From positions 2,703,521 through 2,767,520 of the forward strand of contig NZ_BLIZ01000001.1 in assembly GCF_019972315.1 (NCBI RefSeq): DNA of 64,000 nucleotides, in the 5' to 3' direction. The DNA comes from Geobacter sp. AOG1. GTDB taxonomy: Bacteria; Desulfobacterota; Desulfuromonadia; Geobacterales; Geobacteraceae. Positions 25,686 to 63,885 of this stretch are shown here, piece by piece. Each line of letters begins with the position of its first letter. Position 1 is the first letter of the stretch. A model generated the notes under the pieces. The model saw nothing but the letters and a program-made list of their open reading frames with translations. It ran no database searches and was not told the DNA's origin. Made by a program: the position numbers and the translations under genes.

Positions 25686-27944
25686 ATGAAAAAGTGCGTA
25701 CTGTTGTATCAGCTGTTTGTTGCCGTACTCGCGATATCGGTGATGGCCATGGCCGGTTGCGGCGGCGGAGGCGGAGGCGGCACGGCCCCAGCCGCCAGTA
25801 CCCAGGTGGTCAGCAAAGGGGCCATTACCAAGCTGGGGAGCATCTTTGTCAACGGGGTCGAATACGATACCACCGGCACCACCGTCACCATGGAAAATCC
25901 TGATGATTCCGCTGGCGGTCTTAAAGTCGGCATGGTCGTGACCGTCAAGGGGACATTAAGTGACAGTACCCACGCCAAGGCGACCAGCGTCACGTTTGCC
26001 GATAACCTGACGGGACCGATAGCTTCCTTTGATGGAACTGCCGGCACCATGACGGTTCTGGGGCAGACGGTCAAATTCGATTCGTCGACCGTCTTCGACA
26101 ACTTCCCGACACAGGGGACAAGCAGTGTCCTCCCGGGGCAGATGGTCCAGGTGAGCGGGTTTACCAATGCGGACGGCTCAATTCAGGCGACCCGCATCGA
26201 GCGTCATACGCCCGATTGGACGCAGACGACGACCGTTGAACTGAAGGGGACCATAGGCACCATGAATGGGGCTGTATTTACCATTGGGGGGATGACTGTC
26301 GATGCTACCGGTCTGACCCTGCCGGCCGGAACCGTGGCAGGCTCGTTCGTTAAGGCCGAGGGGAAACTGTTGGCGTTTAGCAGTACAACCCTCAAGGCGA
26401 CAAGCGTCTCATCATACAATGATGGGATCGAGACCGAGGGGGGGACCAGGAATCATATGGATGTGGAAGGGTACGTCCGGAACCTTTCGGGCACCACGTT
26501 CATGGTGGGTGGCACACTCGTCAACGCAGGGACTCTTTCCCTTGCCGGGATTGCCAACGGTGTGAAGGTGGAAGTGGAAGGCGTGTTCGCCAACGGTGTC
26601 CTGATCGCGAGTAAAATAACCATCGAGGGTGCCGTCGTCCCGACGACCGTTCCCGCCGCCCCTGTCGTCAGTGCCGTCGCCGGCATGAACCAGGTGACTG
26701 TCTCCTGGAATGGCGTCAGCGGAGCGACATCGTACAACATCTACTGGTCGACGACTGCAGGGGTAACCCCGGCCACAGGGACCAAAATAGCCAATGCAAC
26801 TTCTCCCTACGTGCAGACAGGGCTGACCGCCGGCACCACCTATTATTACGTGGTGACAGCGGTAAACAGCGTTGGCGAGAGCGCTCCGTCGGCCCAGGTT
26901 TCTGCGATACCGACCAGTGCTCCGACCGTACCGGCGGCTCCCATCGGAGTGTCAGCTGTCGGCGGGGCCAACCAGGTGACTGTCTCCTGGGCTGCCGTTG
27001 CCGGTGCGACATCATATAATATTTACTGGTCAACGACCTCGGGAGTGACCCCTGCTACGGGAACCAAAATAACCGGTGCTGCGTCCCCCTATGTACAGAC
27101 CGGCCTGACCGCTGCTACTGCATACTACTATGTCGTCACAGCAGTTAATGCCGCCGGAGAAAGCGCTCCCTCGGCCCAGGTTTCGGCGACCACAGCTTCA
27201 GCCGCGGTGTTGCCGGCGCCGACCGGGGTAACCGCCGTCGGCGGTACCGGCCAAGTGACCATTACCTGGAGTCCCGTCACCGGCGCGACCTCGTACAACA
27301 TCTACTGGTCAACGACCACAGGGGTAACTCCTCTTACCGGTACACTGATTGCCAACGCAACCTCTCCCTATATGCAAACGGGACGGACTGCATCGACAAC
27401 GTACTACTACGTCGTTACGGCGGTTAACGCCGCCGGCGAAAGCGCCCCCTCCGCCCAGGCTTCGGCAACCACTGCCGCAGCGCCTCAGCCGCCGGCCGCG
27501 CCGACAGGTGTCACTGCTGTGGGAGGAACAAACCAGGTGACCGTTTCCTGGGCTGTAGTCACCGGTGCAACATCATATAATATCTACTGGTCAACCACAT
27601 CGGGAGTAACTCCCGCTACGGGAACCAAAATAACCGGTGTTACGTCACCCTATATCCAGACCGGTCTTGCCGCATCGACCACTTACTATTACGTGGTTAC
27701 AGCCGTGAATGCTGTCGGTGAAAGTGCACCGTCGGCCCAGGTTTCGGCTACGACTGCTGCACCGGCCCTGGATGGACTGACCCTGTATAACACAAACTGT
27801 TCAGGCTGCCATGGACCGCCATCCGCGCTGCCGGGCAGGACCGCAGCCCAGATACAGGCTGCGATCAACTCTAATATCGGTGGGATGGGATTCCTGTCAT
27901 TTCTGACTCCTGCCCAGATCCAGGCGATTGCCAGCATCCTCTGA
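25686..27944 (+). CDS. Large lipoprotein: DUF5666-like regions, four fibronectin III repeats, C-terminal cytochrome c
   Basis: About 752 residues. The start follows AAGGAGG and a lipoprotein signal ends MAGC, followed by a poly-Gly run, so it should be anchored by a lipidated Cys. Residues ~35-320 contain several beta-rich units typical of DUF5666 (GAITKLGSIFVNGVEYDT; GTIGTMNGAVFTIGG). Four fibronectin type III repeats of about 90 residues follow, each with VTVSW..V.GATSYNIYWSTT and TYYYVVTAVN..GESAPSAQ. The last ~55 residues contain one haem motif, CSGCH, with GGMGF as possible distal Met. It looks like a surface-exposed electron-transfer or adhesion protein with a terminal haem on a long stalk. 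Confidence 0.85.
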   Translation: MKKCVLLYQLFVAVLAISVMAMAGCGGGGGGGTAPAASTQVVSKGAITKLGSIFVNGVEYDTTGTTVTMENPDDSAGGLKVGMVVTVKGTLSDSTHAKATSVTFADNLTGPIASFDGTAGTMTVLGQTVKFDSSTVFDNFPTQGTSSVLPGQMVQVSGFTNADGSIQATRIERHTPDWTQTTTVELKGTIGTMNGAVFTIGGMTVDATGLTLPAGTVAGSFVKAEGKLLAFSSTTLKATSVSSYNDGIETEGGTRNHMDVEGYVRNLSGTTFMVGGTLVNAGTLSLAGIANGVKVEVEGVFANGVLIASKITIEGAVVPTTVPAAPVVSAVAGMNQVTVSWNGVSGATSYNIYWSTTAGVTPATGTKIANATSPYVQTGLTAGTTYYYVVTAVNSVGESAPSAQVSAIPTSAPTVPAAPIGVSAVGGANQVTVSWAAVAGATSYNIYWSTTSGVTPATGTKITGAASPYVQTGLTAATAYYYVVTAVNAAGESAPSAQVSATTASAAVLPAPTGVTAVGGTGQVTITWSPVTGATSYNIYWSTTTGVTPLTGTLIANATSPYMQTGRTASTTYYYVVTAVNAAGESAPSAQASATTAAAPQPPAAPTGVTAVGGTNQVTVSWAVVTGATSYNIYWSTTSGVTPATGTKITGVTSPYIQTGLAASTTYYYVVTAVNAVGESAPSAQVSATTAAPALDGLTLYNTNCSGCHGPPSALPGRTAAQIQAAINSNIGGMGFLSFLTPAQIQAIASIL

Positions 27945-27964
27945 TCTCCTCCGTCTGCATTACA

Positions 27965-28001
27965 CTGCCGGAAGCGGGTCCTCCCAGGCCCCTTCCGGCA
28001 G
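27965..28001 (+). terminator. Hairpin after the FN3/cytochrome lipoprotein
   Basis: CTGCCGGAAG at 27965-27974 pairs perfectly with CTTCCGGCAG at 27992-28001, followed by CATCTTTATT. The T-run is interrupted, so termination may be partial. The bases from 28002 to 28215 are AT-rich and carry no gene that I can see; TTGAAA-17-TAAGGT at 28154-28182 is a weak promoter candidate for the riboswitch transcript. Confidence 0.65.
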
Positions 28002-28215
28002 CATCTTTATTGTCCATCCCACCTCTTAACTTTCCTCCGACTTCATTACCCGACGCTCGTTTGTAACGCGAAGCCTGCCTGGCGACGGTAACCTGTTGCA
28101 GTGGCAGATTCATATAGAATCTGTTTTATTAGTGTTATTCAAATGTTTTTTTCTTGAAATTATTTTGTGGAACGAGTAAGGTAGCACTACTTACATTGTC
28201 TACAAAATCATCACT

Positions 28216-28302
28216 AGATACACGATAATACTAAACTATCCGCGAGGATAGGGCGGAAAGCCCACAGGGTCTCACCGAGACAGCCGGGTTACCGAAATAT
28301 CT
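28216..28302 (+). ncRNA. GEMM-I (class Ib) cyclic dinucleotide riboswitch aptamer, predicted 3',3'-cGAMP type
   Basis: The segment aligns base for base in its core with the GEMM-I aptamer. P1 is AGATA (28216-28220) with TATCT (28298-28302). The CACG element at 28221-28224 is followed by P2 with a GCGA tetraloop (TATCC-GCGA-GGATA, 28237-28250), then GGGCGGAAAGCC with the intercalating A at 28257. P3 is GTCTC-ACC-GAGAC, then the CCGGGTTACCGA segment containing the ligand-contacting C near 28292. The position equivalent to G20 of the c-di-GMP riboswitch Vc2 is A (28230). That change is known from Geobacter GEMM-Ib riboswitches that prefer cyclic AMP-GMP. The downstream gene is a cytochrome, the usual target of that class. 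Confidence 0.92.
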
Positions 28303-28331
28303 CAAACCAGATGTTCGGACCCGGCTTTTTT
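28283..28331 (+). terminator. Riboswitch expression platform: intrinsic terminator competing with aptamer
   Basis: GCCGGGT (28283-28289) and CCGAA (28292-28296) pair with TTCGG (28314-28318) and ACCCGGC (28319-28325), followed by six T at 28326-28331. The 5' arm is the 3' part of the aptamer, so ligand-stabilised P1 would prevent this stem. That makes it a transcriptional ON switch for the cytochrome gene at 28364. Confidence 0.9.
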
Positions 28332-28363
28332 GTGTCCGCTATCTGCGAGAAAAAGGAGAAAAA

Positions 28364-29644
28364 ATGAGGAAGATAGCAGCGTTTTTTTGTTTTTCGTTCG
28401 CCCTTGCCGCATTGTTTACCTGGATTCCGAAAGCCGATGCGACGTCCACCCTGTATTCCACCAACTGCTCAGGGTGCCATGGTACGACACCTACTACCTG
28501 CGCGGGGTGTCATGCACACGGTGTCCACTCAAGCAGCGCAAAAACCGGAATCAACCTGACCGGCGTGACAAACAAGACAACCTATGCCCCCGGAGAGACG
28601 GTAAGCGTCACCATCAACGGCGGCTACCGTTCCGGATGGGTGCGCGCGATTCTCTATGATCAAAACATGGTAGAGAAGGCACGAAGCACCGGACCTACCG
28701 GAGAAGGCGGTGGCGCAAGTTTCCCGATTACCCTGACTGCCCCGGCGCCGACGACGCCCGGTACCTATACCTGGAACGTCTCCTGGTACGGCAATCAGTA
28801 TGACATTGCCACTGCCACCTTCGGCTCCCGCTGGACCCCCGATGCAAACAACCCTGACCACGGACAAGAGATCGTCAGCACCAACGCCTTTACCGTAGGC
28901 ACAGTGATTACTCCTGCAAAGATCGGGGTCTTCAACAATGGAACATGGTTCCTCGATGGGAATGGCAATGGCGCGTGGGACGGCTCGACCACTGATCGGC
29001 AACTGGTCTTCGGCTTCCCTGGTGCGATTCCGGTAACAGGCGACTGGAACGGGAGCGGCACTTCCAAAATCGGCGTTTTCGACAAGGGGACATGGTATCT
29101 CGACCTGAACGGCAATGGTGTCTGGGATGGCGCGCCGTCTGACAAAAACATTATTTTCGGCGCCGGACTCGCCGGGGCGGTTCCCGTAACCGGCGACTGG
29201 ACCGGAACCGGTACCACCAAGGTCGGCGTGTATGTTAACGGTAAATGGTACCTCGATCTTAACGGCAATGGTGTCTGGGACGGTGAAACGGTTGACGGAC
29301 TCTATACCTTCGGGGATGGTCTCGCGGGTGCCGTTCCCGTAACCGGCGACTGGACCGGAGATGGCACGACAAAGATCGGCGTGTATGTGAACGGCGTCTG
29401 GTACCTCGATTATAACAACAACAAGGTATGGGACGGCCCCTCTGCTGACCGTCAGTACTACTTCGGCTTTAATGGAGCGTTGCCGGTGACAGGCGACTGG
29501 AACGCGGACGGCAAAACGGAGATCGGTACCTTCAACAACGGGGTATGGTATCTTGACCTGAATGGCGACGGTACCTGGAATGGAACGCCGACCGACGTCA
29601 CTTACAGCTTCGGTACCGGAACTCCGGTAGCGGGGAAATGGTAA
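28364..29644 (+). CDS. Secreted di-haem protein with five-repeat C-terminal module, riboswitch controlled
   Basis: A 426-residue secreted protein; signal peptide MRKIAAFFCFSFALAA..ADA. Two haem motifs sit close together near residues 35 and 48 (CSGCH and CAGCH, then HAHGVH). A beta-sandwich-like domain of ~110 residues follows (TYAPGETVSVTI, GGYRSGWVRAILYD, GTYTWNVSWYG), vaguely like reeler-type domains. From about residue 186 (28919-29641) there are five tandem repeats of ~48 residues with K.GV...G.WYLD.NGNG.WDG and VPVTGDW.G.GT. The last repeat ends in GKW, as in one multicopper oxidase of this window. AAGGAG precedes the ATG. It probably acts outside the cell in electron transfer; transcription depends on the riboswitch upstream. 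Confidence 0.88.
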   Translation: MRKIAAFFCFSFALAALFTWIPKADATSTLYSTNCSGCHGTTPTTCAGCHAHGVHSSSAKTGINLTGVTNKTTYAPGETVSVTINGGYRSGWVRAILYDQNMVEKARSTGPTGEGGGASFPITLTAPAPTTPGTYTWNVSWYGNQYDIATATFGSRWTPDANNPDHGQEIVSTNAFTVGTVITPAKIGVFNNGTWFLDGNGNGAWDGSTTDRQLVFGFPGAIPVTGDWNGSGTSKIGVFDKGTWYLDLNGNGVWDGAPSDKNIIFGAGLAGAVPVTGDWTGTGTTKVGVYVNGKWYLDLNGNGVWDGETVDGLYTFGDGLAGAVPVTGDWTGDGTTKIGVYVNGVWYLDYNNNKVWDGPSADRQYYFGFNGALPVTGDWNADGKTEIGTFNNGVWYLDLNGDGTWNGTPTDVTYSFGTGTPVAGKW

Positions 29645-29679: not shown

Positions 29680-29716
29680 ACAGGGTGTGTTGCGTTTGCA
29701 GCACACCCTGTTTTTT
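29680..29716 (+). terminator. Strong intrinsic terminator
   Basis: CAGGGTGTG with an inner TGC pairs with GCA and CACACCCTG (29681-29710), around a GTTT loop, followed by TTTTTT at 29711-29716. It ends the riboswitch-cytochrome transcript; the next gene is convergent. Confidence 0.92.
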
Positions 29717-29768: not shown

Positions 29769-31400
29769 TCAGTACCGGTAGCGGAGTTCGAACTTCGCCA
29801 GATGATTTGTACGATCCTGGTTCCCCACCAGGTCCATATTATCGATGTGTTCCACCCCGTACATCATCTGGGCGTCAAAATCGCCGTACACCGGCACTGT
29901 CCAGAATACTCTCCCCGCGTTCTTCCTCTCCACTGCCTGCCCGGGTAGCAGGCCGAATGTGCCGCGTTCCGTGAAGAAATATTCAAGTGCCACGTTGTTC
30001 CTCGCATCGAACCAGTGGGCGTAGCGGAAGAAATAATCTTCAACAGCACCCCCCTGTGAGTGACCGAAGGTCATGTTGTGGTAGAGAAACCCTTCCGGAA
30101 ACTTGTTCTTGTCGCTCCAATAGAGGATATTGTTACCTCTGAAATATTCGAAACGGAATTCGTTCCTGCCGTCTGCCGTCAGCATGGGGATATGGACGCC
30201 GGCAAGGTAGCTCTCCACGATGGGCCAGAACGTAGCGGCATCGCAACCGGAAAGCTCTCCGTACAGTTCGGTGTTGCGCAGCCACGGAATGCGGTAACGG
30301 GCCTCGAAACCGGCATTAGCCTTCGAATTATCCGAAGACGTTCCACCCACGAGCCCTTTCATCCAGGCAGACAGGCTGTTATCCGTACCGGGTCCCCCCT
30401 GCATCCTCCCCAGATTCAATCCGATTTCAAAGTTCTCAGTCGGCTTCATACTGAGCTTCAGGGCATAGAACCACGGCTGATGTTCCTGCCCGTCGACAAA
30501 AGTTCTGTCCAGCCGTGAAAAAATGAAAGCATACTTCATGTCTCCGAGCCACGACAGCCAGTCGACGCGAAACGGCTCGGGGCTCGACAATTTTACGAAA
30601 TCGAGGTTACGGGCATTATTGGTCAGGGTTATCGCCCCCCGGTATCCCAACCCCAGCCAGTTTTCGTCCCTCCCCACTTCCAGTTCCAGGCTTTGCCCCC
30701 CCACCTTGAGGTATCCCCGGTTGAGCCTCAGAGTTGCATCGGACCGGGTAATCAGCAACGATGGCTCCAGGAGCGCCGCCATCTTGTCCAGCACATACCC
30801 CTCGGCAGCCCACCGCACCTCACCGTTGTTCCCTTTGCGGTAGACGACGCCATCGTTGTTCTCGAAAAGTGGCGTGCCTTCCGTGCCATGGAGCTGGACA
30901 GGGGAAGGGTAGGGGTATGCTGGCCGCAGACCCTGGCCGATGCCGAATACACCGTCGTTTCCGGGGTCATGGACCTGCCGCTCATAACTGCGTGGTTTGC
31001 CGTCGAGATAGACGTAGCGGAGAAGGACAGATGACGCGGGGTTGAAATCGAACAGCGGAGCTTCTTTCGCGGGTTCCTGCTTCAGGGCCACCTCGCGCTT
31101 GAGCAGTTCCCGTCCCCTCTCAATCAGGTCGACGGCGAAAACCGGTGCGTCACCATGCGCCTGAACATTCCCTTCGGCTTCCAGAAGGAGTCGCGTGGCT
31201 TCGGCCTTCGAATAGGGCTTGATTCCCCTGACATCCGAGTGAATCAGTCCCATGCCGGCCAGCTTGTCCAGATAAGCATAGAGTGGGCTGTCCAGGGAAA
31301 TATTGGTAGAAGAAAGGGCGGCACAATCATCGATGCAGCAGGCAGTTGTAATTATGGCCACGGTCAATGCGATAATCAGTGGTTGGCGAAGGTAACTCAT
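29769..31400 (-). CDS. wzi: Capsule assembly Wzi family outer membrane protein
   Basis: A 543-residue protein with a hydrophobic leader. The N-terminal part has the conserved SPLYAYLDKLAGMGLIHSD..GIKPYSKAEA segment of Wzi-type proteins, followed by a beta-barrel with many aromatic strands ending in FELRYRY, a typical C-terminal beta-barrel strand. Wzi proteins bind exported polysaccharide at the outer membrane and hold it on the surface. It is the last gene of the minus-strand polysaccharide locus, so it may attach that polymer. Confidence 0.88.
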   Translation of the reverse strand: MSYLRQPLIIALTVAIITTACCIDDCAALSSTNISLDSPLYAYLDKLAGMGLIHSDVRGIKPYSKAEATRLLLEAEGNVQAHGDAPVFAVDLIERGRELLKREVALKQEPAKEAPLFDFNPASSVLLRYVYLDGKPRSYERQVHDPGNDGVFGIGQGLRPAYPYPSPVQLHGTEGTPLFENNDGVVYRKGNNGEVRWAAEGYVLDKMAALLEPSLLITRSDATLRLNRGYLKVGGQSLELEVGRDENWLGLGYRGAITLTNNARNLDFVKLSSPEPFRVDWLSWLGDMKYAFIFSRLDRTFVDGQEHQPWFYALKLSMKPTENFEIGLNLGRMQGGPGTDNSLSAWMKGLVGGTSSDNSKANAGFEARYRIPWLRNTELYGELSGCDAATFWPIVESYLAGVHIPMLTADGRNEFRFEYFRGNNILYWSDKNKFPEGFLYHNMTFGHSQGGAVEDYFFRYAHWFDARNNVALEYFFTERGTFGLLPGQAVERKNAGRVFWTVPVYGDFDAQMMYGVEHIDNMDLVGNQDRTNHLAKFELRYRY

Positions 31401-48114: not shown

Positions 48115-51100
48115 TTATTGCCAATTACCCGTGACCGGGGTCGACCCGGTAATTCCAAAGATGGCATTGGTATCCGCAGGGGGATTCCATGCGCCATTAC
48201 CGTCCGTATCCATATACCAGATCGAATTGGATGGGTCGTAGACACCGATCTTTGTTTTCCCGCTGCCATCCCAATCGCCGGTTACCGGTTTGACGCCGGC
48301 AAAGCCGAAGGTATACAGTTTATCGATTGCCGGATTCCAGACGCCATCGCCGTCATAATCCAGGTGCCAGGTGAAGGTGGCGGGGTCGTAGTATCCGACC
48401 TTGGTTCTACCGTCGCCGTTCCAATCCCCTGTGACCGGGATGACGCCCGGAGCTCCGAAGGTATACAGATAATCTTTCATCGGATCATTGTTCCAGACAC
48501 CATCACCGTTAGCGTCCAGATACCACTTGAAGGTGACGGGATCATACACGCCGATCCTGGTTATGCTGCCGAGGCCGCTCCAGTTTCCTGATACAGGTAT
48601 GGAGCCGGTGACACCGAAGTAATATATCCTGTCTGCTGTTGTGCCACTCCAGGCGCTATCACCGCTCATATCCAGATACCAGGTGAAAGTAGCCGGGTTA
48701 TAGGTGCCAACCTGGGTGACACCGCTGCCGTTCCAGTCTCCCGCGACCGGGATGTCGCCCGGCGTACCGAAAAAGAGGGTCTTGTCGGTGGGGGTTCCGT
48801 CCCATGCCTTGTTGCCAGAGACATCCAGATACCAGTCAGTACCTTTGAACGTGCCAATTTTAGCCGGCGCAACAACCCGGTAAGGCCGCATCATCTCGTT
48901 GTCTTCATGCTCGATGATGTGGCAATGCCAGACATACGTTCCCGCGATATTAAACTGGGCCTTGATCCGAGTGACCTGGCCGGGGAGGGCGAGCACGGTG
49001 TCTTTGTAGCCCATTTCGTTGGGCTGCGGCGTGGTCGTCATTCCCACAGTTGGATCAGGCACCAGGGTGCCGGGGATGAGGTTCTGCCGATTGACCACTT
49101 CGAAGCGTACCAGATGCACATGGACCGGATGGGCATCTGCGGTGGTATTGTAGATTTCCCAGGTTTCGGTACTGTTCAGTAGTGGCAGCTCGGTAAGCGG
49201 GTCAGACCACGTCATCGGCAAGGAGACGAGGCTGTTGGCAGACAGTGTCCCCAGCAGCGGTTGGCGGGGGCCAACCGGTATGGCGATGTTGCCTGCCGTG
49301 ACAACCGCTGCCAGAGCACAGTTGCTCGCGAAATTGGGATCCCCGGCGACGGTGCTGAAGAGTGTGCCGGCGATCGCCCCGGTGAGCGGGTCGACTTCTA
49401 CGCAAACTTGGGTTGAGTCCAGTTCATTGAGGGACACCTTGCGGGGTTTGGGCACCGAAGCACCGAGTGCGGTTTCGGCCGGGAGGACCAGGTTCTGCAC
49501 CGCTGTAGTGGTTCCATCGCTTGGCAAAACCGGAACGACGGTGCTATCCACGATGAAGTCCATCACCTGGCCAGAGGTGAGCGGGTCGGCCGGTACGTAG
49601 AGCGCAAGATTGGCCGGGAAACCCTGGAAGGGGGAGTCGGGCGCCGTGTTGAGTAGGCGAACATGAGTACCGTTGGCCAGACCGGTAAAATCGACAATTA
49701 CGTCGGCTCGTTCGGCCGGACCCAATAGCAGGCCCTGTTCCGTTGAGGGGGCAGCCACGGGCGCCGAAATGGCACCTCCGCCTCCCGGATAAGTTGCCGT
49801 GAAACCTTTGGTGATCTTGACAACCTTGGGGAGGAAGCCCTGATCGCCGCCGATCTGGTAGAAGGGGACTTCAGTGGTGGTCGTGACGTCGTCTGCCGTA
49901 CCCCATTTGCCGTCCGGACCGGCAGTCACGACGAACATCGAGAGGTTGAGCGTCCGCGAGTCGCAGCCGTCCAGAAGGCGGAAACGGTATTTGGTCGGGG
50001 CCACGGTGAGTTGCGGCCAGGTCGTGCCGTTGACCACCATGGTGTTGAAGAATGCTTCGGGATTGGCGATGCCGGAGATGTCAGAGGGACCGGCCGGCGT
50101 ACCGGTGCCGCCGATATACGGCCCGGTAAAGCCGTCGAAGAAGGCTCGGGTGGACGGATAGAAAAGCTTGGCCTGGGTTGCTCCCGTCGAAGTCGGCAGC
50201 GTATTCCCCAGGGCATCAGCCCAATCGAAGGAACGGTCCTGAATAGCGATCGGAATCTCGCGGATGACGTTGCGGGTTGCGGGGGTCAGGTTCGGATCCT
50301 GTCCAGCGGTTGGCGCAGGGCCGGGCAGGACGCCAGTTGCCGTGTCGTTCGCGCCTCCCCGGATCAGCCAGAAACCGGCCGGACCGGCATAAACGTTCAG
50401 ACGGGTCATGCCGAGGGTATGGTCATGATACCAGATCGTCGTGGCTGGCTGGCTGTTGAGATAGCTGTAATACGCCGAGCCGGGAATGGAATTGCTGTTG
50501 TTGGCCTGGGTATAGACAGAACCGCGCTCGACGTAGTTTGCCGGGATTCCCTTGGTGCCGGGAGTTCCGGGCAGCCACCAGGCCTCGGGATAGCCGTCGC
50601 TGTGCGGCAACACATGGGCTCCGTGGACATGGGTTACCATCGGGACCGGGCCGGTGTAGGGAGCGGCATTCAAGGTATGGCAGTCGGTCATGTTGGGGGT
50701 CATCGGCATGGTACAGCCTATGCCGGTCGGGTTTGCCCAATGCACAGTCTGGTCGACACTGAACAGGTGCGGGAGGAAATTACAGGCCGCGATGGTCTTG
50801 CTGGGAGATGCCGCACAGGCGACCGGATCGGCGACCAGGTCGTTGATCCAGCGCACCGAGGTGGCAATGTTCGAGGTGTTTTCCACGGTAAAGGCAGGAT
50901 AGTTGAAGGACGAGTTGGCGGCCGGCGCGACCCCTGCCGCTCCTCCCGGAATCGCCGTTGAATCTGGTTGCGGGTCCGCAGCCCGGCCGTAACTCCAGAC
51001 AGTGGACGCCGGGAAGGGGCCTACTGTCGCCGGCGCCGTCCCCAATGGATTTGGGAAGCTGCTTCCCCAGATGCCCCCCGGCAGAATCTGCTGTTTGAAC

Positions 51101-51324
51101 TGGCGGACAGCGATATCATAATTGGCGGCAGGGGCCGGTGAATCGTCGCTCGTGGGCATCACCGGCGGGATAACCAGCGGCGTCACGTACTTGGGGATGC
51201 TCGTCGGGTCGACGGTGCCACCCGGTACCGGCACGGCGTAAGCGATGGAAGCGGTGCTCAGGCCTATGACGGCAAGAACGGCAATGGCCCTGAATCTTTC
51301 GTACCATCGTGGATATTCTTCCAT
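48115..51324 (-). CDS. Secreted multicopper oxidase with C-terminal five-repeat module (MCO-B)
   Basis: A 1069-residue protein with a signal peptide (RFRAIAVLAVIGLSTASIAYA), start after AAAGGAGGT. All four copper-ligand clusters are visible: HVHGAH, WYHDHTLGM, HPVHVHLV and the type 1/3 set WHCHIIEHEDNEMM. It is therefore a complete three-domain oxidase of the OmpB/CotA-like type. Inserts between the copper motifs make it much longer than ordinary laccases (~500 residues). The last ~248 residues (48118-48861) are five tandem repeats, K.G.Y.P..F.WYLD..GDG.W and VTGDWNG.G, the variant with an inserted Pro-Ala-Thr loop. It probably oxidises metal or phenolic substrates at the cell surface. Confidence 0.92.
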   Translation of the reverse strand: MEEYPRWYERFRAIAVLAVIGLSTASIAYAVPVPGGTVDPTSIPKYVTPLVIPPVMPTSDDSPAPAANYDIAVRQFKQQILPGGIWGSSFPNPLGTAPATVGPFPASTVWSYGRAADPQPDSTAIPGGAAGVAPAANSSFNYPAFTVENTSNIATSVRWINDLVADPVACAASPSKTIAACNFLPHLFSVDQTVHWANPTGIGCTMPMTPNMTDCHTLNAAPYTGPVPMVTHVHGAHVLPHSDGYPEAWWLPGTPGTKGIPANYVERGSVYTQANNSNSIPGSAYYSYLNSQPATTIWYHDHTLGMTRLNVYAGPAGFWLIRGGANDTATGVLPGPAPTAGQDPNLTPATRNVIREIPIAIQDRSFDWADALGNTLPTSTGATQAKLFYPSTRAFFDGFTGPYIGGTGTPAGPSDISGIANPEAFFNTMVVNGTTWPQLTVAPTKYRFRLLDGCDSRTLNLSMFVVTAGPDGKWGTADDVTTTTEVPFYQIGGDQGFLPKVVKITKGFTATYPGGGGAISAPVAAPSTEQGLLLGPAERADVIVDFTGLANGTHVRLLNTAPDSPFQGFPANLALYVPADPLTSGQVMDFIVDSTVVPVLPSDGTTTAVQNLVLPAETALGASVPKPRKVSLNELDSTQVCVEVDPLTGAIAGTLFSTVAGDPNFASNCALAAVVTAGNIAIPVGPRQPLLGTLSANSLVSLPMTWSDPLTELPLLNSTETWEIYNTTADAHPVHVHLVRFEVVNRQNLIPGTLVPDPTVGMTTTPQPNEMGYKDTVLALPGQVTRIKAQFNIAGTYVWHCHIIEHEDNEMMRPYRVVAPAKIGTFKGTDWYLDVSGNKAWDGTPTDKTLFFGTPGDIPVAGDWNGSGVTQVGTYNPATFTWYLDMSGDSAWSGTTADRIYYFGVTGSIPVSGNWSGLGSITRIGVYDPVTFKWYLDANGDGVWNNDPMKDYLYTFGAPGVIPVTGDWNGDGRTKVGYYDPATFTWHLDYDGDGVWNPAIDKLYTFGFAGVKPVTGDWDGSGKTKIGVYDPSNSIWYMDTDGNGAWNPPADTNAIFGITGSTPVTGNWQ

Positions 51325-53583: not shown

Positions 53584-56500
53584 CTACCATTTGCCGATGA
53601 TCGGTGCAGCTCCGGCCAAACCAGCTCCGAATGTATAGCTGCCATCGGTAGGCGTGCCGTTCCATACTCCGTTGCCGTTCAAGTCGAGATACCAGGTTTG
53701 ATTGGCAAACATGCCGATCTTCGTGGTTCCCGTTCCTGTCCAGTCACCAGTCACCGGTACGGCTCCCGTGAGACCGGCGCCAAAAGTATAGGCACCGTCA
53801 GTTGGCGTTCCGTCCCATGCTCCGTTGCCGTTCAAGTCAAGATACCAGGTCCCGTTGGCATATAGGCCAATCTTCGTGGTTCCCGTTCCTGTCCAGTCGC
53901 CAGTCACCGGTACGACTCCCGTGAGACCGGTGCCAAAAGCGTAGATGCCGTCTGTTGGCGTTCCGTCCCATACTCCGTTGCCGTTCAGGTCAAGATACCA
54001 CAGTCCGTTGCCATACACGCCGATCTTCGTGGTTCCGTTCCCGGTCCAGTCTCCGGTGACCGGTATGGCACCTGCGATACCGACACCGAAACTGTAGGTT
54101 GTGTTACTGGTACCCAAGGTGCCGTTTCCGGCCATGTCGAGTATCCAGGTACCGTTATTGTACACGCCGATCTTGGTGCTACCGCTGCCATTCCAGTCAC
54201 CGCTTACCGGAATGTCACCAGTTGTGCCGAAAGTATAGAACTTGTCAATAGCTGGATCCCATGTGCTATTGCCCGTTGCATCGAGATACCACTGACCGTT
54301 AAGGAATACGCCAACACGGTCATTGGGCTTGAAGACAACCGGCCGCATCATGTCGTTCTCTTCATGGCCCAGGAGGTGGCAGTGCCAAACATACTCGTGT
54401 CCGAAGCTGGCAATTTGGTTGGTGACAGTCATCGGGGTACCAGTCAAGGGGTCAACGCCGGTGAATTGCGTTGTGGTACCCAGCGGCATGGTCACGTCAA
54501 GCGGTCGGACGCTGTCAGGAAGCGGGAAGGGTACCGGCGCTGTCTTCGGTCTCAAGGCAACTACGATGTCTTCCAGCGGATGCATCCTGACGGTGTCTTT
54601 CCACCCCAGTTCGTTGGCATCGGGGGGTCTTATGGCACCGTCCCAGCCGACCCGGTTGATTATCTGTACATCGGTCAGGTGGAAGTGGATGGCATGGGTG
54701 TCCACGCCGTTATGGGTGATTTTCCAAAGCTGGGGCTTGCCATTGGCGAGGTGCTCGGTAGGAGGGTCTATGTACCCCAGGGGGATCGTCGTCTGGATCA
54801 GGGCACTGGTAAATGGCAGTTCAACCCCCAGTGTGGCATTCATCCGTCCATAATCCGGGGTGAAGAGTTCCTGAATGGCCTTCGGCTGCATCGGCATCGT
54901 TACCGGTGCGGTTGCGCCGACCGGAGTGAAGGTCAGGGAAGTGGCCGAGATTGTTGAATACGTGTCAGTAGCTGCGTGATACGCCCCGGGGTAACCCGTC
55001 TGCGGAACCACCGGCGCGGGCTGCGACGCCGCATAGATCGTCGGTAGCGCCGCGGTTAACGGTGCCGAATTGAAGGGCACCGGAGTAGCTGCCGCTACCC
55101 GGAACTGCATGATGGTACGGGTATTGGGGCCGTAGCCGGCCTTTGTCGAAGGTGCGCCACCCATCCAGGTATTGTCCGGGCTGCCCGTGTAGTAGTCGAT
55201 GCGCGGGTCGAACGCCGGCACCGGCGCGGGGGCGTCGTTGTACAGGATGACGGTCTTGCCGGCATAGGCGGAGAAGTCGACGATGACGTCGGCCCGCTCA
55301 GCCGGACCCAGGAAGAGCGCCTTGTCCAGCACATTCAGTACCACGATGTTCCTGCGATTATATTCATAGTTGACCGGCTGGGGATCGATCACGGCAGGCG
55401 CCGGCAAAAGACCGCCTTCGGTGCCTATCTGGATCATCGACGGGCCAGCCGTCGCTGGATCGGGCACACCTCCAGCCCTTGAATCCGTGGGCCAGGTTGG
55501 AGGGAAACAGCCAACCGGTGTTCCGGGGGCTCCGGTGCAGGTGCAGTTTGTCGTGACGGTTGCACTGCAGGCCGGTCGAGGGACTGCCGGAACCATCTTG
55601 ACTTCCTTTTGATACCCGGGATTCGGCAGGCCGGTCACGGGATCAAACGGGGTAAGGGTAGGGTCGGCGGTAAATAACGACAGGTTGAACATCCGGTCGT
55701 TGGCTGCGTTCAGGATCCGCAAACGATATGCCTGCGGTTGCACGTCGAGATACGGATAGGCCGTGCCGTTGACGACAGCCGTGTCCATGAAACTTTCAGG
55801 CACGCCGGACACGTTAAATGTCGGCAGTCCGGGGAACTGGACGGGGAACACCGGCCAGAACCAGGGGCCGTAATCCCACCGGCCATAATTGTTCGCGCCA
55901 GTCAGGTCCGGGTTGGTCGGCCACTGGTTGGTCTCGTACACATGGGGGAACCAGAGATCGCCATACACGCCCCATTTGGGGTTGGTCCACTTCGCATCCT
56001 GGACGGCCACGTCCTGGGGGACGAAGGTCTTGTCCTGGATGATCAGGGGGATGAGGTGAGCAAGATCATTTGCCGGGTCAGTCAAAGTGGCCGGGTTGCT
56101 GATAGTTCCCGGCACACCGGCAGTCTTCAGCGAGGCTTCTTCCGTCGGATCTACGATAACATAACCTGCTGCCTCGCCGGCATAGACATTGAGGCGCGTG
56201 ATCCCATAGGAATGGTCGTGGTAGAACATCAGCCTGCCGCTCTGGTTGTTGGTGTAGTAATACGTTGATACACCGGCCGGCTCGATCCCACCGTCCATGT
56301 CGGGAACGTTATGCAGACTGTCACCTTTGAGGTAGGTAGTAGACGTTTCTCCTGCTGGTGTAATCCACTGGTGAGGAGTCCCGTCGCTGATCCACGGAGT
56401 GTGCCCACCATGAAGATGGAGATCTGCCCGGTTCTGCGTGTAGGCATTCGTCCCGTCGGGGCCCATCCCTGCCCCCATGTACGTGGTGTCCACCGGTATG

Positions 56501-57099
56501 AAGAGGTCGCCCGCACCGTTAGCGCCAAGTTCGTTGAAGAACTTGATACGTACCGGCTTGTTCTTCGTGGCAAGGATCAGAGGTCCCAGGTAATGCGATG
56601 AATGGTCCGTACCATTTTTCTGGTAATACCCCCTGAGCTTGGTGCCGGTTCCCAATGTATCAGTTGTGAGGGGGAGGTCCGAGTGCATCCGTGCCCGGTA
56701 GTCCTTCAGTCCAATCTCGTAATAATCGGACCCAGAATACAAAGCGGTGTCCGGCGTTGCAATGGGGATGTACTGCCCCAAGTTGTTTGCACCCAGGGCG
56801 GTGCCGGCTGGTCGTGCACCGGCCCCCAGACCTGGCAGCGCGTCAACGAACTTCCTGAGTGGTGTGCCGGAATTGCTGGAAGCGCTGCTGTAGTTGCCGA
56901 GAGCGTTGACGTACTTCCAGTTACCTGCCGGGCTGTTGGCGTAGAATGTACCTCCGCTGGGCGTCGCGGATGCCGGGTAGTCGGGCGGCGGCGGCGTCGC
57001 CCTGGTCCCCGGTCCCGCCTGGACCGGCATAACCCCCAAGGAAAGGGCAGCTAGCGCCAGTACCAGGCTCATAATGATTGAAAATCGTTGTCTGTCCAT
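53584..57099 (-). CDS. Secreted multicopper oxidase with C-terminal five-repeat module (MCO-A, OmpB-like)
   Basis: About 1171 residues; signal peptide ending VMPVQAG, start at 57099 after AAAGGAGG. Copper-binding clusters are all present: LHLHGGH (~residue 228), FYHDHSYGI (~294), HAIHFHLTD, and WHCHLLGHEENDMM before the repeat module. It belongs to the very large secreted oxidases typified by Geobacter OmpB, which that organism needs for growth on insoluble Fe(III) oxide. The last ~244 residues (53587-54318) are five tandem repeats (KIG.Y.NG.WYLDLNGNGVWDGTPTDG.Y.FG and VPVTGDWTGTGTT), the canonical form shared with the riboswitch-controlled cytochrome. It is probably extracellular or outer-surface, acting on metal or phenolic substrates. 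Confidence 0.93.
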   Translation of the reverse strand: MDRQRFSIIMSLVLALAALSLGVMPVQAGPGTRATPPPPDYPASATPSGGTFYANSPAGNWKYVNALGNYSSASSNSGTPLRKFVDALPGLGAGARPAGTALGANNLGQYIPIATPDTALYSGSDYYEIGLKDYRARMHSDLPLTTDTLGTGTKLRGYYQKNGTDHSSHYLGPLILATKNKPVRIKFFNELGANGAGDLFIPVDTTYMGAGMGPDGTNAYTQNRADLHLHGGHTPWISDGTPHQWITPAGETSTTYLKGDSLHNVPDMDGGIEPAGVSTYYYTNNQSGRLMFYHDHSYGITRLNVYAGEAAGYVIVDPTEEASLKTAGVPGTISNPATLTDPANDLAHLIPLIIQDKTFVPQDVAVQDAKWTNPKWGVYGDLWFPHVYETNQWPTNPDLTGANNYGRWDYGPWFWPVFPVQFPGLPTFNVSGVPESFMDTAVVNGTAYPYLDVQPQAYRLRILNAANDRMFNLSLFTADPTLTPFDPVTGLPNPGYQKEVKMVPAVPRPACSATVTTNCTCTGAPGTPVGCFPPTWPTDSRAGGVPDPATAGPSMIQIGTEGGLLPAPAVIDPQPVNYEYNRRNIVVLNVLDKALFLGPAERADVIVDFSAYAGKTVILYNDAPAPVPAFDPRIDYYTGSPDNTWMGGAPSTKAGYGPNTRTIMQFRVAAATPVPFNSAPLTAALPTIYAASQPAPVVPQTGYPGAYHAATDTYSTISATSLTFTPVGATAPVTMPMQPKAIQELFTPDYGRMNATLGVELPFTSALIQTTIPLGYIDPPTEHLANGKPQLWKITHNGVDTHAIHFHLTDVQIINRVGWDGAIRPPDANELGWKDTVRMHPLEDIVVALRPKTAPVPFPLPDSVRPLDVTMPLGTTTQFTGVDPLTGTPMTVTNQIASFGHEYVWHCHLLGHEENDMMRPVVFKPNDRVGVFLNGQWYLDATGNSTWDPAIDKFYTFGTTGDIPVSGDWNGSGSTKIGVYNNGTWILDMAGNGTLGTSNTTYSFGVGIAGAIPVTGDWTGNGTTKIGVYGNGLWYLDLNGNGVWDGTPTDGIYAFGTGLTGVVPVTGDWTGTGTTKIGLYANGTWYLDLNGNGAWDGTPTDGAYTFGAGLTGAVPVTGDWTGTGTTKIGMFANQTWYLDLNGNGVWNGTPTDGSYTFGAGLAGAAPIIGKW

Positions 57100-57137
57100 G
57101 AATCCTCCTTTGAATTGCGTGTGCATGTTCCGTTTCC

Positions 57138-62670: not shown

Positions 62671-63885
62671 TCATTGCCGCACAGTAGTTACCGCCGTTGC
62701 CTGGTCGACGTCCGCATCATTGTCAACAACGGTGACAGTCCAGGTTATATCCCCCAATACGGTAGGTCTGAACGGCGGGAATTTGAACATGACCGTTTCG
62801 GCCGGCGGCACGGAGACGTTGATGGTCTCGCTGTAGACCTGGTTGCCGTTCTGCATGCCGACCAGGGTTGCCGTGGAAGTTCCAGGCCCGGTCCCCTCGT
62901 TGAAGAGCAAGAGGTGGAAATTGACCGAGTTCGCCTTACCCTTTTCCTTCAGTTTGATCTCTTTTGTTGCCATAAACTTCTGGATGTCGAAGTCGAACTC
63001 GGTAAGTGGTGGAGTGGTGACGCCGCTCCCTGTCAGATTCAAAACGGCCGGGTTGGTGACCGGGTCGTTGCTGGTGATGTTCAGGCAGCCGGTATCGGTC
63101 CCCGTATCCACTGGCGCGTAGGCTACCGACAGGGTCTGGCTGCTTCCCGGGGTGACCGTGAACGGCGCCGGTGGCGACCAGGTAAACTCCGTGCTGGTCC
63201 CGGTGCAGAGGGCGATGGCGGTTATGCTGAGATCTGCGGTGCCCGTGTTTTGCACCAGGGTTGTCAGGGTTGCGGACCCGCCGGTGAGGATGGAGCCGAA
63301 ATTCAGCGATGCCGGATTAAGAGCGATACTCGGCGTCGGTACCGGGGTTACCGCGACCGTAAAGGAGTTGGTACTGACGATTTCCTGGCCGTGTTCTGGG
63401 TTGTTCGGATCGGGTGTCCAGCGCGGGCCGAAGAAGGCGCCGCTGGCGTCGAACTGGTTGCCGTACCAGGCGACATTCCAGGTGTACGTTCCCGCAGCCG
63501 CAGGTGCCGGTGCTGTCAGGGTGATCGGGTAACCGGGGCCGCCACCAATACCGGCCGGGCCGGTACTTCTTGCCAGTTCAACCATGTTCTGGTCATAAAG
63601 GATCGCGCGAATCCATCCTGTCCGGTAGCCGCCGGTAATGTTGACGCTCACCGTTTCGCCGGGCGCATAAGTCTGTTTGTCGGTCGTGCCCGCGACATTT
63701 ATGTCGCTTTTTGTGCTGTCCGTGTGAACGCCGTGGGCGTGGCAGCCATTGCAGGTGGCAGTCGCGCCATGACAGCCGGCACAGTTGGTAGTGTAGAAAC
63801 CCGAAAATGCATTTGCGTTAGGCACCCACGACATCCAGGCGGCCAGCGCCAGGATGCAACAGAATACCAAAGATGCTTTTTTCAT
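62671..63885 (-). CDS. Secreted di-haem protein with choice-of-anchor-D (ASH-like) domain
   Basis: About 404 residues; signal peptide ending NANA, start at 63885 after AAAGGAG. Two haem motifs (CAGCH, CNGCH, then HAHGVH) open the mature protein, followed by the same beta domain as in the riboswitch-controlled protein (TYAPGETVSVNI, GGYRTGWIRAILYD, GTYTWNVAWYG). Instead of the five repeats, the C-terminus has an ASPM/SPD-2/hydin-like beta domain (LNPASLNFGSILTGGSATLTTLVQNTGTADLSI, SNDPVTNPAVLNLTGSGV) and a further beta domain. It is a clear paralogue with a swapped C-terminal half. Probably extracellular. Confidence 0.88.
   Translation of the reverse strand: MKKASLVFCCILALAAWMSWVPNANAFSGFYTTNCAGCHGATATCNGCHAHGVHTDSTKSDINVAGTTDKQTYAPGETVSVNITGGYRTGWIRAILYDQNMVELARSTGPAGIGGGPGYPITLTAPAPAAAGTYTWNVAWYGNQFDASGAFFGPRWTPDPNNPEHGQEIVSTNSFTVAVTPVPTPSIALNPASLNFGSILTGGSATLTTLVQNTGTADLSITAIALCTGTSTEFTWSPPAPFTVTPGSSQTLSVAYAPVDTGTDTGCLNITSNDPVTNPAVLNLTGSGVTTPPLTEFDFDIQKFMATKEIKLKEKGKANSVNFHLLLFNEGTGPGTSTATLVGMQNGNQVYSETINVSVPPAETVMFKFPPFRPTVLGDITWTVTVVDNDADVDQATAVTTVRQ

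Follow-up and report, generated by a model that had tools for sequence, protein, structure and literature searches.

A GEMM-Ib leader predicted to act as a cGAMP-responsive ON switch precedes a putative di-haem protein gene in Geobacter sp. AOG1

The window analysed here is a stretch of 64,000 nt from the Geobacter sp. AOG1 genome, in which a structured leader on the plus strand precedes a gene for a protein of 426 aa. The leader holds the sole match to any Rfam family at gathering score in the whole window. The next gene in the ORF list (29769-31400) lies on the opposite strand, and as the gene behind the leader is followed by a hairpin with a T run at 29680-29716, it is probably monocistronic. 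A simple promoter scan of 27940-28420 did not find any sigma-70-like promoter. The features of the locus, all on the plus strand, are:

28216..28302, + strand, GEMM-Ib aptamer including the outer helix P1a (RF01051 match, pairing check and pair counts on 35 leaders)
28216-28220/28298-28302, + strand, P1a (5/5 pairs)
28230, + strand, A, the cGAMP-favouring base at the Vc2 G20 position (alignment; A20G selectivity change in the homologue Gmet_0970)
28231-28232/28255-28256, + strand, P1b-like pairs
28236-28241/28246-28251, + strand, P2 with GCGA loop
between 28259 and 28290, + strand, P3
28282..28331, + strand, intrinsic terminator of 17 bp, built from three segments, with T run T28326-T28331 (pairing, folds and the 35 leaders)
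28292, + strand, C at the place of Gs riboswitch C75, which pairs with the ligand G; it also opens the inner terminator helix (alignment; analogous pilM C75-G102 pair)
28354..28358, + strand, Shine-Dalgarno-like AGGAG ahead of the start codon at 28364 (sequence reading)
28364..29644, + strand, regulated gene, 426 aa, two CxxCH, hydrophobic N-terminus, Ig-like domain and five propeller-like repeats (sequence and structure model)
29680..29716, + strand, terminator-like hairpin with T run, 3' of the gene (fold and sequence)

The Rfam covariance model RF01051 (c-di-GMP-I, GEMM-I) matched 28220-28296 on the plus strand with 45 bits against a gathering score of 35 bits (E 1.4e-05 for the window), and the alignment was full length (columns 1-87). 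Columns 1-43 aligned without gaps, which places A28230 in column 11 and A28257 in column 38, the columns that we take to be Vc2 G20 and A47, and the P2 loop reads GCGA, a GNRA loop. The overall fold, A47 and the GNRA loop are thus shared with GEMM-Ia (c-di-GMP-I) aptamers of the Vc2 type, whereas the window element has A for G at position 20 followed by C-U for G-C. P1a and the terminator extend beyond the RF01051 match and both are present, in agreement with the extent of 28216-28331 in the original prediction, which had also rested on the gap-free core, the A at G20, the retained A47 and the GNRA loop found here.

With the numbering of ligand contacts printed for the Gs cGAMP riboswitch in PMC6274999, the letters G8, A9, A11, A12, A14, C15, G40, A41 and A42 of the Gs structure were all present in the window aptamer at a single fixed offset (9/9), and the equivalent of C75, assigned by its position before CGAA, is C28292, giving 10/10 ligand-contact letters. 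The described Geobacter GEMM-Ib elements, Gs1761 (pgcA), Gm0970 and G. metallireducens pilM, are like the window element in Rfam family, A20 and the ten contact letters, and in having a terminator that sequesters the ligand-pairing C; the P2 span of 26 nt is common to all of these and to the Gs riboswitch. They are also alike in placement before surface and cytochrome genes, and differ in that the window element regulates another gene and that its ligand is here a prediction. In the homologue Gmet_0970, an A20G variant was c-di-GMP-selective (PMC6456294). The GEMM-Ib identity proposed originally is hence carried by the ten contact letters, A at position 20 (A28230) among them, and we suggest, from these letters and the published homologues, that the element is best read as GEMM-Ib with a predicted preference for cGAMP, as had been proposed.

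Sensitivity to both dinucleotides is reported for omcST, an element of G. sulfurreducens (PMC6456294), and one Rfam family covers both aptamer kinds, so the window aptamer might be dual or c-di-GMP-preferring despite its A20, in which case the gene would follow c-di-GMP or both messengers. We consider this unlikely, as the contact letters agree throughout with those of the cGAMP riboswitch, the Gs1761 and Gm0970 homologues are about 1200-fold and 1600-fold cGAMP-selective (PMC6456294, PMC8835794), and the core of the window subtype is close to the cores of 15 other elements of the same genome.

To look at conservation we aligned 35 GEMM-Ib leaders, the 16 of the AOG1 genome and 19 chosen from other genomes. 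P2 pairs in all cells of the alignment, with two-sided changes in 4 of its 6 pairs. Over the whole aptamer 94.9% of cells pair, which is above every one of 500 shuffles, while the count of further pair types in the aptamer was not above shuffles among these 35 leaders (487/500 as high). The riboswitch is retained before all three orthologues found (L054, L055 and L056), whose proteins are 90, 86 and 76% identical to the AOG1 protein, and upstream of the riboswitch the DNA is partly alike for the closest orthologue and different for the other two.

The terminator is formed by an outer segment (28282-28289/28319-28326, 8/8 pairs), the inner helix that starts with C28292 (28292-28296/28314-28318, 5/5) and a third segment next to the loop (28299-28302/28309-28312, 4/4). 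Drawn from the window and laid over the 35 leaders, it pairs in 86.1% of cells versus 30-46% when slid; its covariation is weak, with one pair changed on both sides and 474/500 shuffles as high. When the tails were folded singly, 34 of the 35 rows gave a hairpin of -13.9 to -34.7 kcal/mol, the remaining row being unparsed. It should be noted that a simple terminator scan did not report the terminator at 28282-28331, which folding does show, as the pattern of the scan takes loops of 3-8 and here 29 folded bases separate the outer arms. We also considered that the terminator might belong to the upstream gene; against this, the stop of that gene is already at 27944, and part of the hairpin is made of aptamer bases.

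The terminator occupies the 3' arms of P3 and P1a plus C28292, so aptamer and terminator are mutually exclusive; a shared 3' arm and a terminator ending in a T run were part of the original prediction and both are found. In minimum-energy folds P1a is present in transcripts ending at 28303, 28308 and 28312 and gone at 28318, and the whole outer terminator stem appears in the transcript ending at 28326. Equilibrium folding gives -43.4 kcal/mol for the complete leader and -24.9 kcal/mol with the aptamer enforced. A gap of this size is common in ON switches that are decided during transcription. It could also be taken to mean a real aptamer on a non-working switch, such as a relic in which termination always occurs, the more so as P1a is only 5 bp and a clear promoter was not found. 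Such a relic seems very unlikely to us, given an aptamer nearly unchanged before three orthologous genes behind differing upstream DNA, an intact gene whose orthologous proteins have kept 76-90% identity, and similar terminators in the other leaders.

The pilM element of G. metallireducens is an ON switch in which the terminator sequesters C75 by a C75-G102 pair (PMC9262584). From this precedent and the overlap of aptamer and terminator we infer that ligand should switch transcription on, and the proposed ON direction is accordingly kept as the one expected from the shared bases and the folds. Termination promoted by ligand is extremely improbable; both directions exist among GEMM-I riboswitches (PMC9262584), but here both structures need C28292 and the same 3' arms (P3 and P1a) and so exclude each other, and the pilM and pgcA homologues switch ON. 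The leader is therefore best read as a GEMM-Ib transcriptional ON switch of the kind described for Geobacter (PMC6456294, PMC9262584). Once cGAMP is bound, the aptamer with its helices P1a, P2 and P3 would retain the 3' arm and C28292, the terminator would be blocked and RNA polymerase would read through into the gene at 28364-29644. With the ligand absent, the same bases would form the 17-bp terminator and transcription would end at the T run. Taken as a whole, we find it highly probable that a cGAMP-responsive GEMM-Ib ON leader of a di-haem gene is the best explanation of the locus.

The regulated protein gave no match to Pfam or NCBIfam. It has two CxxCH and a hydrophobic N-terminus, which bears out the earlier view of a secreted di-haem protein to the extent that it is a putative di-haem protein and probably exported, as judged from its sequence. 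The structure model has a mean pLDDT of 82.6 and a pTM of 0.66; the five repeat blades are mostly above 90, residues 42-62 are under 50 and the haem segment is modelled at low confidence. An alignment-based PDB sequence search gave two matches, at E 0.002 and E 0.12, the former a partial match (profile 13-47) to a cytochrome c555 construct. Structure comparison covered the pdb libraries only, and in these Foldseek returned 5/1439 at E 0.001 or better, the best including fungal PVL-type lectins and Ig-like chains. VIA-align 2 gave Z 10.9 against 9oee_A (217 residues, 4.0 A, 18% identity) and Z 9.8-10.8 against PVL-type lectins. From the model we propose propeller-like and Ig-like folds and claim no more than that. 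The protein probably belongs to the cell surface or the matrix, where it would serve electron transfer or adhesion.

As had been pointed out from the sequence, each of the two copper-oxidase genes of the window also carries the repeat module (protein residues about 180-426), one with 54% identity (about 48121-48879) and the other with 65% (about 53830-54321). These genes, at 48115-51324 and 53584-57126 on the minus strand, encode multicopper-oxidase-like proteins with the propeller-like repeat module C-terminal. The Rfam scan of the window did not place any GEMM-I near them.

The AOG1 assembly holds 19 GEMM-I, with A at position 20 in 17 and G in 2, and 16 of the elements are of the GEMM-Ib subtype of the window. 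A GEMM-Ib-with-tail model, searched at E 1e-8 or better with stricter filters, had matches in 93 of 97 Geobacterales genomes among the best matches listed, so the class is routine in the group. The one A20 copy outside this subtype (L010, 2824446-2824522 of the AOG1 genome, minus strand) combines A20 with a GEMM-Ia-like scaffold before a six-CxxCH gene, and its ligand is hard to predict.

Genes behind GEMM-Ib in AOG1 include pilM (second reading frame), an L,D-transpeptidase with SPOR, a DUF4382 protein and a three-CxxCH cytochrome with fn3, which is in line with the cGAMP regulon of G. sulfurreducens (PMC6456294). That regulon, with GacA, GSU1937 and 17 GEMM-I, is like the AOG1 set in having tandem copies and in having pilM, an L,D-transpeptidase and a three-CxxCH cytochrome behind GEMM-Ib; the targets that the sections consulted give for it do not include a protein with di-haem, Ig-like and propeller parts. 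GacA and GSU1937, the latter with GGDDF, are reported as cGAMP synthases in G. sulfurreducens (PMC8835794). In AOG1 we read the Hypr position by eye and by pattern in a GGDEF set of 21 rows, two of which are one protein. Serine occupies it in L043 (GHLVGS, GGDEY, with a response-regulator-like N-terminus) and in L051 (GYIRAS, GGDDF), and the position was not readable in L050. Both species thus have two serine-type GGDEF proteins, one with GGDDF. A further GGDEF protein (L044, 36785-37255 of the AOG1 genome) has threonine (GHFAGT) at the substrate-specificity position, where aspartate is usual and Hypr proteins have serine. The two proteins with Hypr-type serine would be the source of cGAMP, and the product of the window gene would be induced alongside pilM, the three-CxxCH cytochrome and the L,D-transpeptidase.

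The regulated protein had been called a new type of target. Its gene does differ from the genes of the published elements, and cytochromes are already known as targets; the claim was nevertheless overstated in view of its relatives. Besides the window gene we found 32 matches to the N-terminal di-haem module. An Rfam scan of 24 of these, from 22 other genomes, showed a same-strand GEMM-I 66-673 nt upstream in 19. The arrangement is single in 7 loci, double in 11 and triple in 1, and the 19 loci span 11 genera and four families. Five scanned relatives (L064, L071, L073, L081 and L082) have no upstream GEMM-I. By comparison, about 0.4% of 1.5-kb single-strand stretches in the AOG1 genome hold a GEMM-I, a chance expectation to be read with the relatedness of the loci in mind. 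Three loci with the repeat module only (L059, L060 and L072) showed no GEMM-I in their 1.5-kb flanks, and are a weak control, given how distant the repeats are from the start of the gene. The di-haem family is a regular, not a one-off, target of such sensors in related bacteria.

Further, beyond the 24 scanned, a di-haem-module gene of the AOG1 genome lies behind a double GEMM-I (L008 and L013). The window itself holds a paralogue of the module at about 63334-63885 (minus strand, 67% identity to residues 1-185), with no GEMM-I in the flanks scanned. Position 20 is A in 31 of the 32 aptamers of the 19 loci, the exception being the second aptamer of L063. This element (L063:2289-2364, minus strand) has G20 on a GEMM-Ib scaffold and follows an A20 copy in a tandem ahead of a di-haem gene; it is a natural counterpart to the engineered A20G variant. 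The portions of the riboswitch and organism literature available to us do not mention the di-haem module, and the protein has no name to search by.

Another arrangement in the AOG1 genome joins the two aptamer kinds, a GEMM-Ib terminator switch (L009), 116 nt, and then a GEMM-Ia with G20 (L001), behind which an 8-pair stem sets GUACCUC against the Shine-Dalgarno GGAGGUAC. A GEMM-Ia subtype model built from nine such copies found 11 copies in 10 of 97 genomes and 7 genera. GEMM-Ib lies upstream in nine of the 11, three of these nine having two GEMM-Ib, and L092 and L123 are copies without an upstream GEMM-Ib. The serial leaders, with one or two GEMM-Ib each, are:

L020, AOG1 genome 2518477-2518760, minus strand, GEMM-Ib terminator switch and then a G20 GEMM-Ia whose tail pairs with the Shine-Dalgarno
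L086, L115, L116, L117, L119, L120, L121 and L122, the same serial arrangement (GEMM-Ib, then Shine-Dalgarno-sequestering G20 GEMM-Ia)

From their sequences these leaders point to a possible serial gate, cGAMP and then c-di-GMP, on one mRNA. In the review of tandem riboswitches PMC9481103, Table 2, as far as available, is without a pair of c-AMP-GMP plus c-di-GMP-I, and the search behind that review used Rfam 12.2; as RF01051 matches both kinds here, such pairs may be counted there as same-ligand tandems. The serial two-messenger leaders are a more novel lead than the window riboswitch.

A joint reading has two parts. First, an exported di-haem plus Ig-like family whose C-termini vary (the window protein has propeller repeats and a paralogue has long repeated domains) would be a signature cGAMP output in Geobacterales, unrecognised as one family. 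Second, other leaders of the same genomes would read cGAMP at transcription, after which a c-di-GMP-type aptamer would gate translation of the same mRNA. We offer this joint reading tentatively, as one whose chances fall a little short of even.

The window sensor is in itself ordinary: it is well conserved, has a strong expression platform and adds one copy to a known riboswitch class for which structures and in vivo data already exist. The serial leaders, if confirmed, would be a natural two-messenger gate. The finding supplies a testable candidate and brings a family of uncharacterised and probably exported di-haem proteins into the signalling circuit by which Geobacter controls metal respiration.
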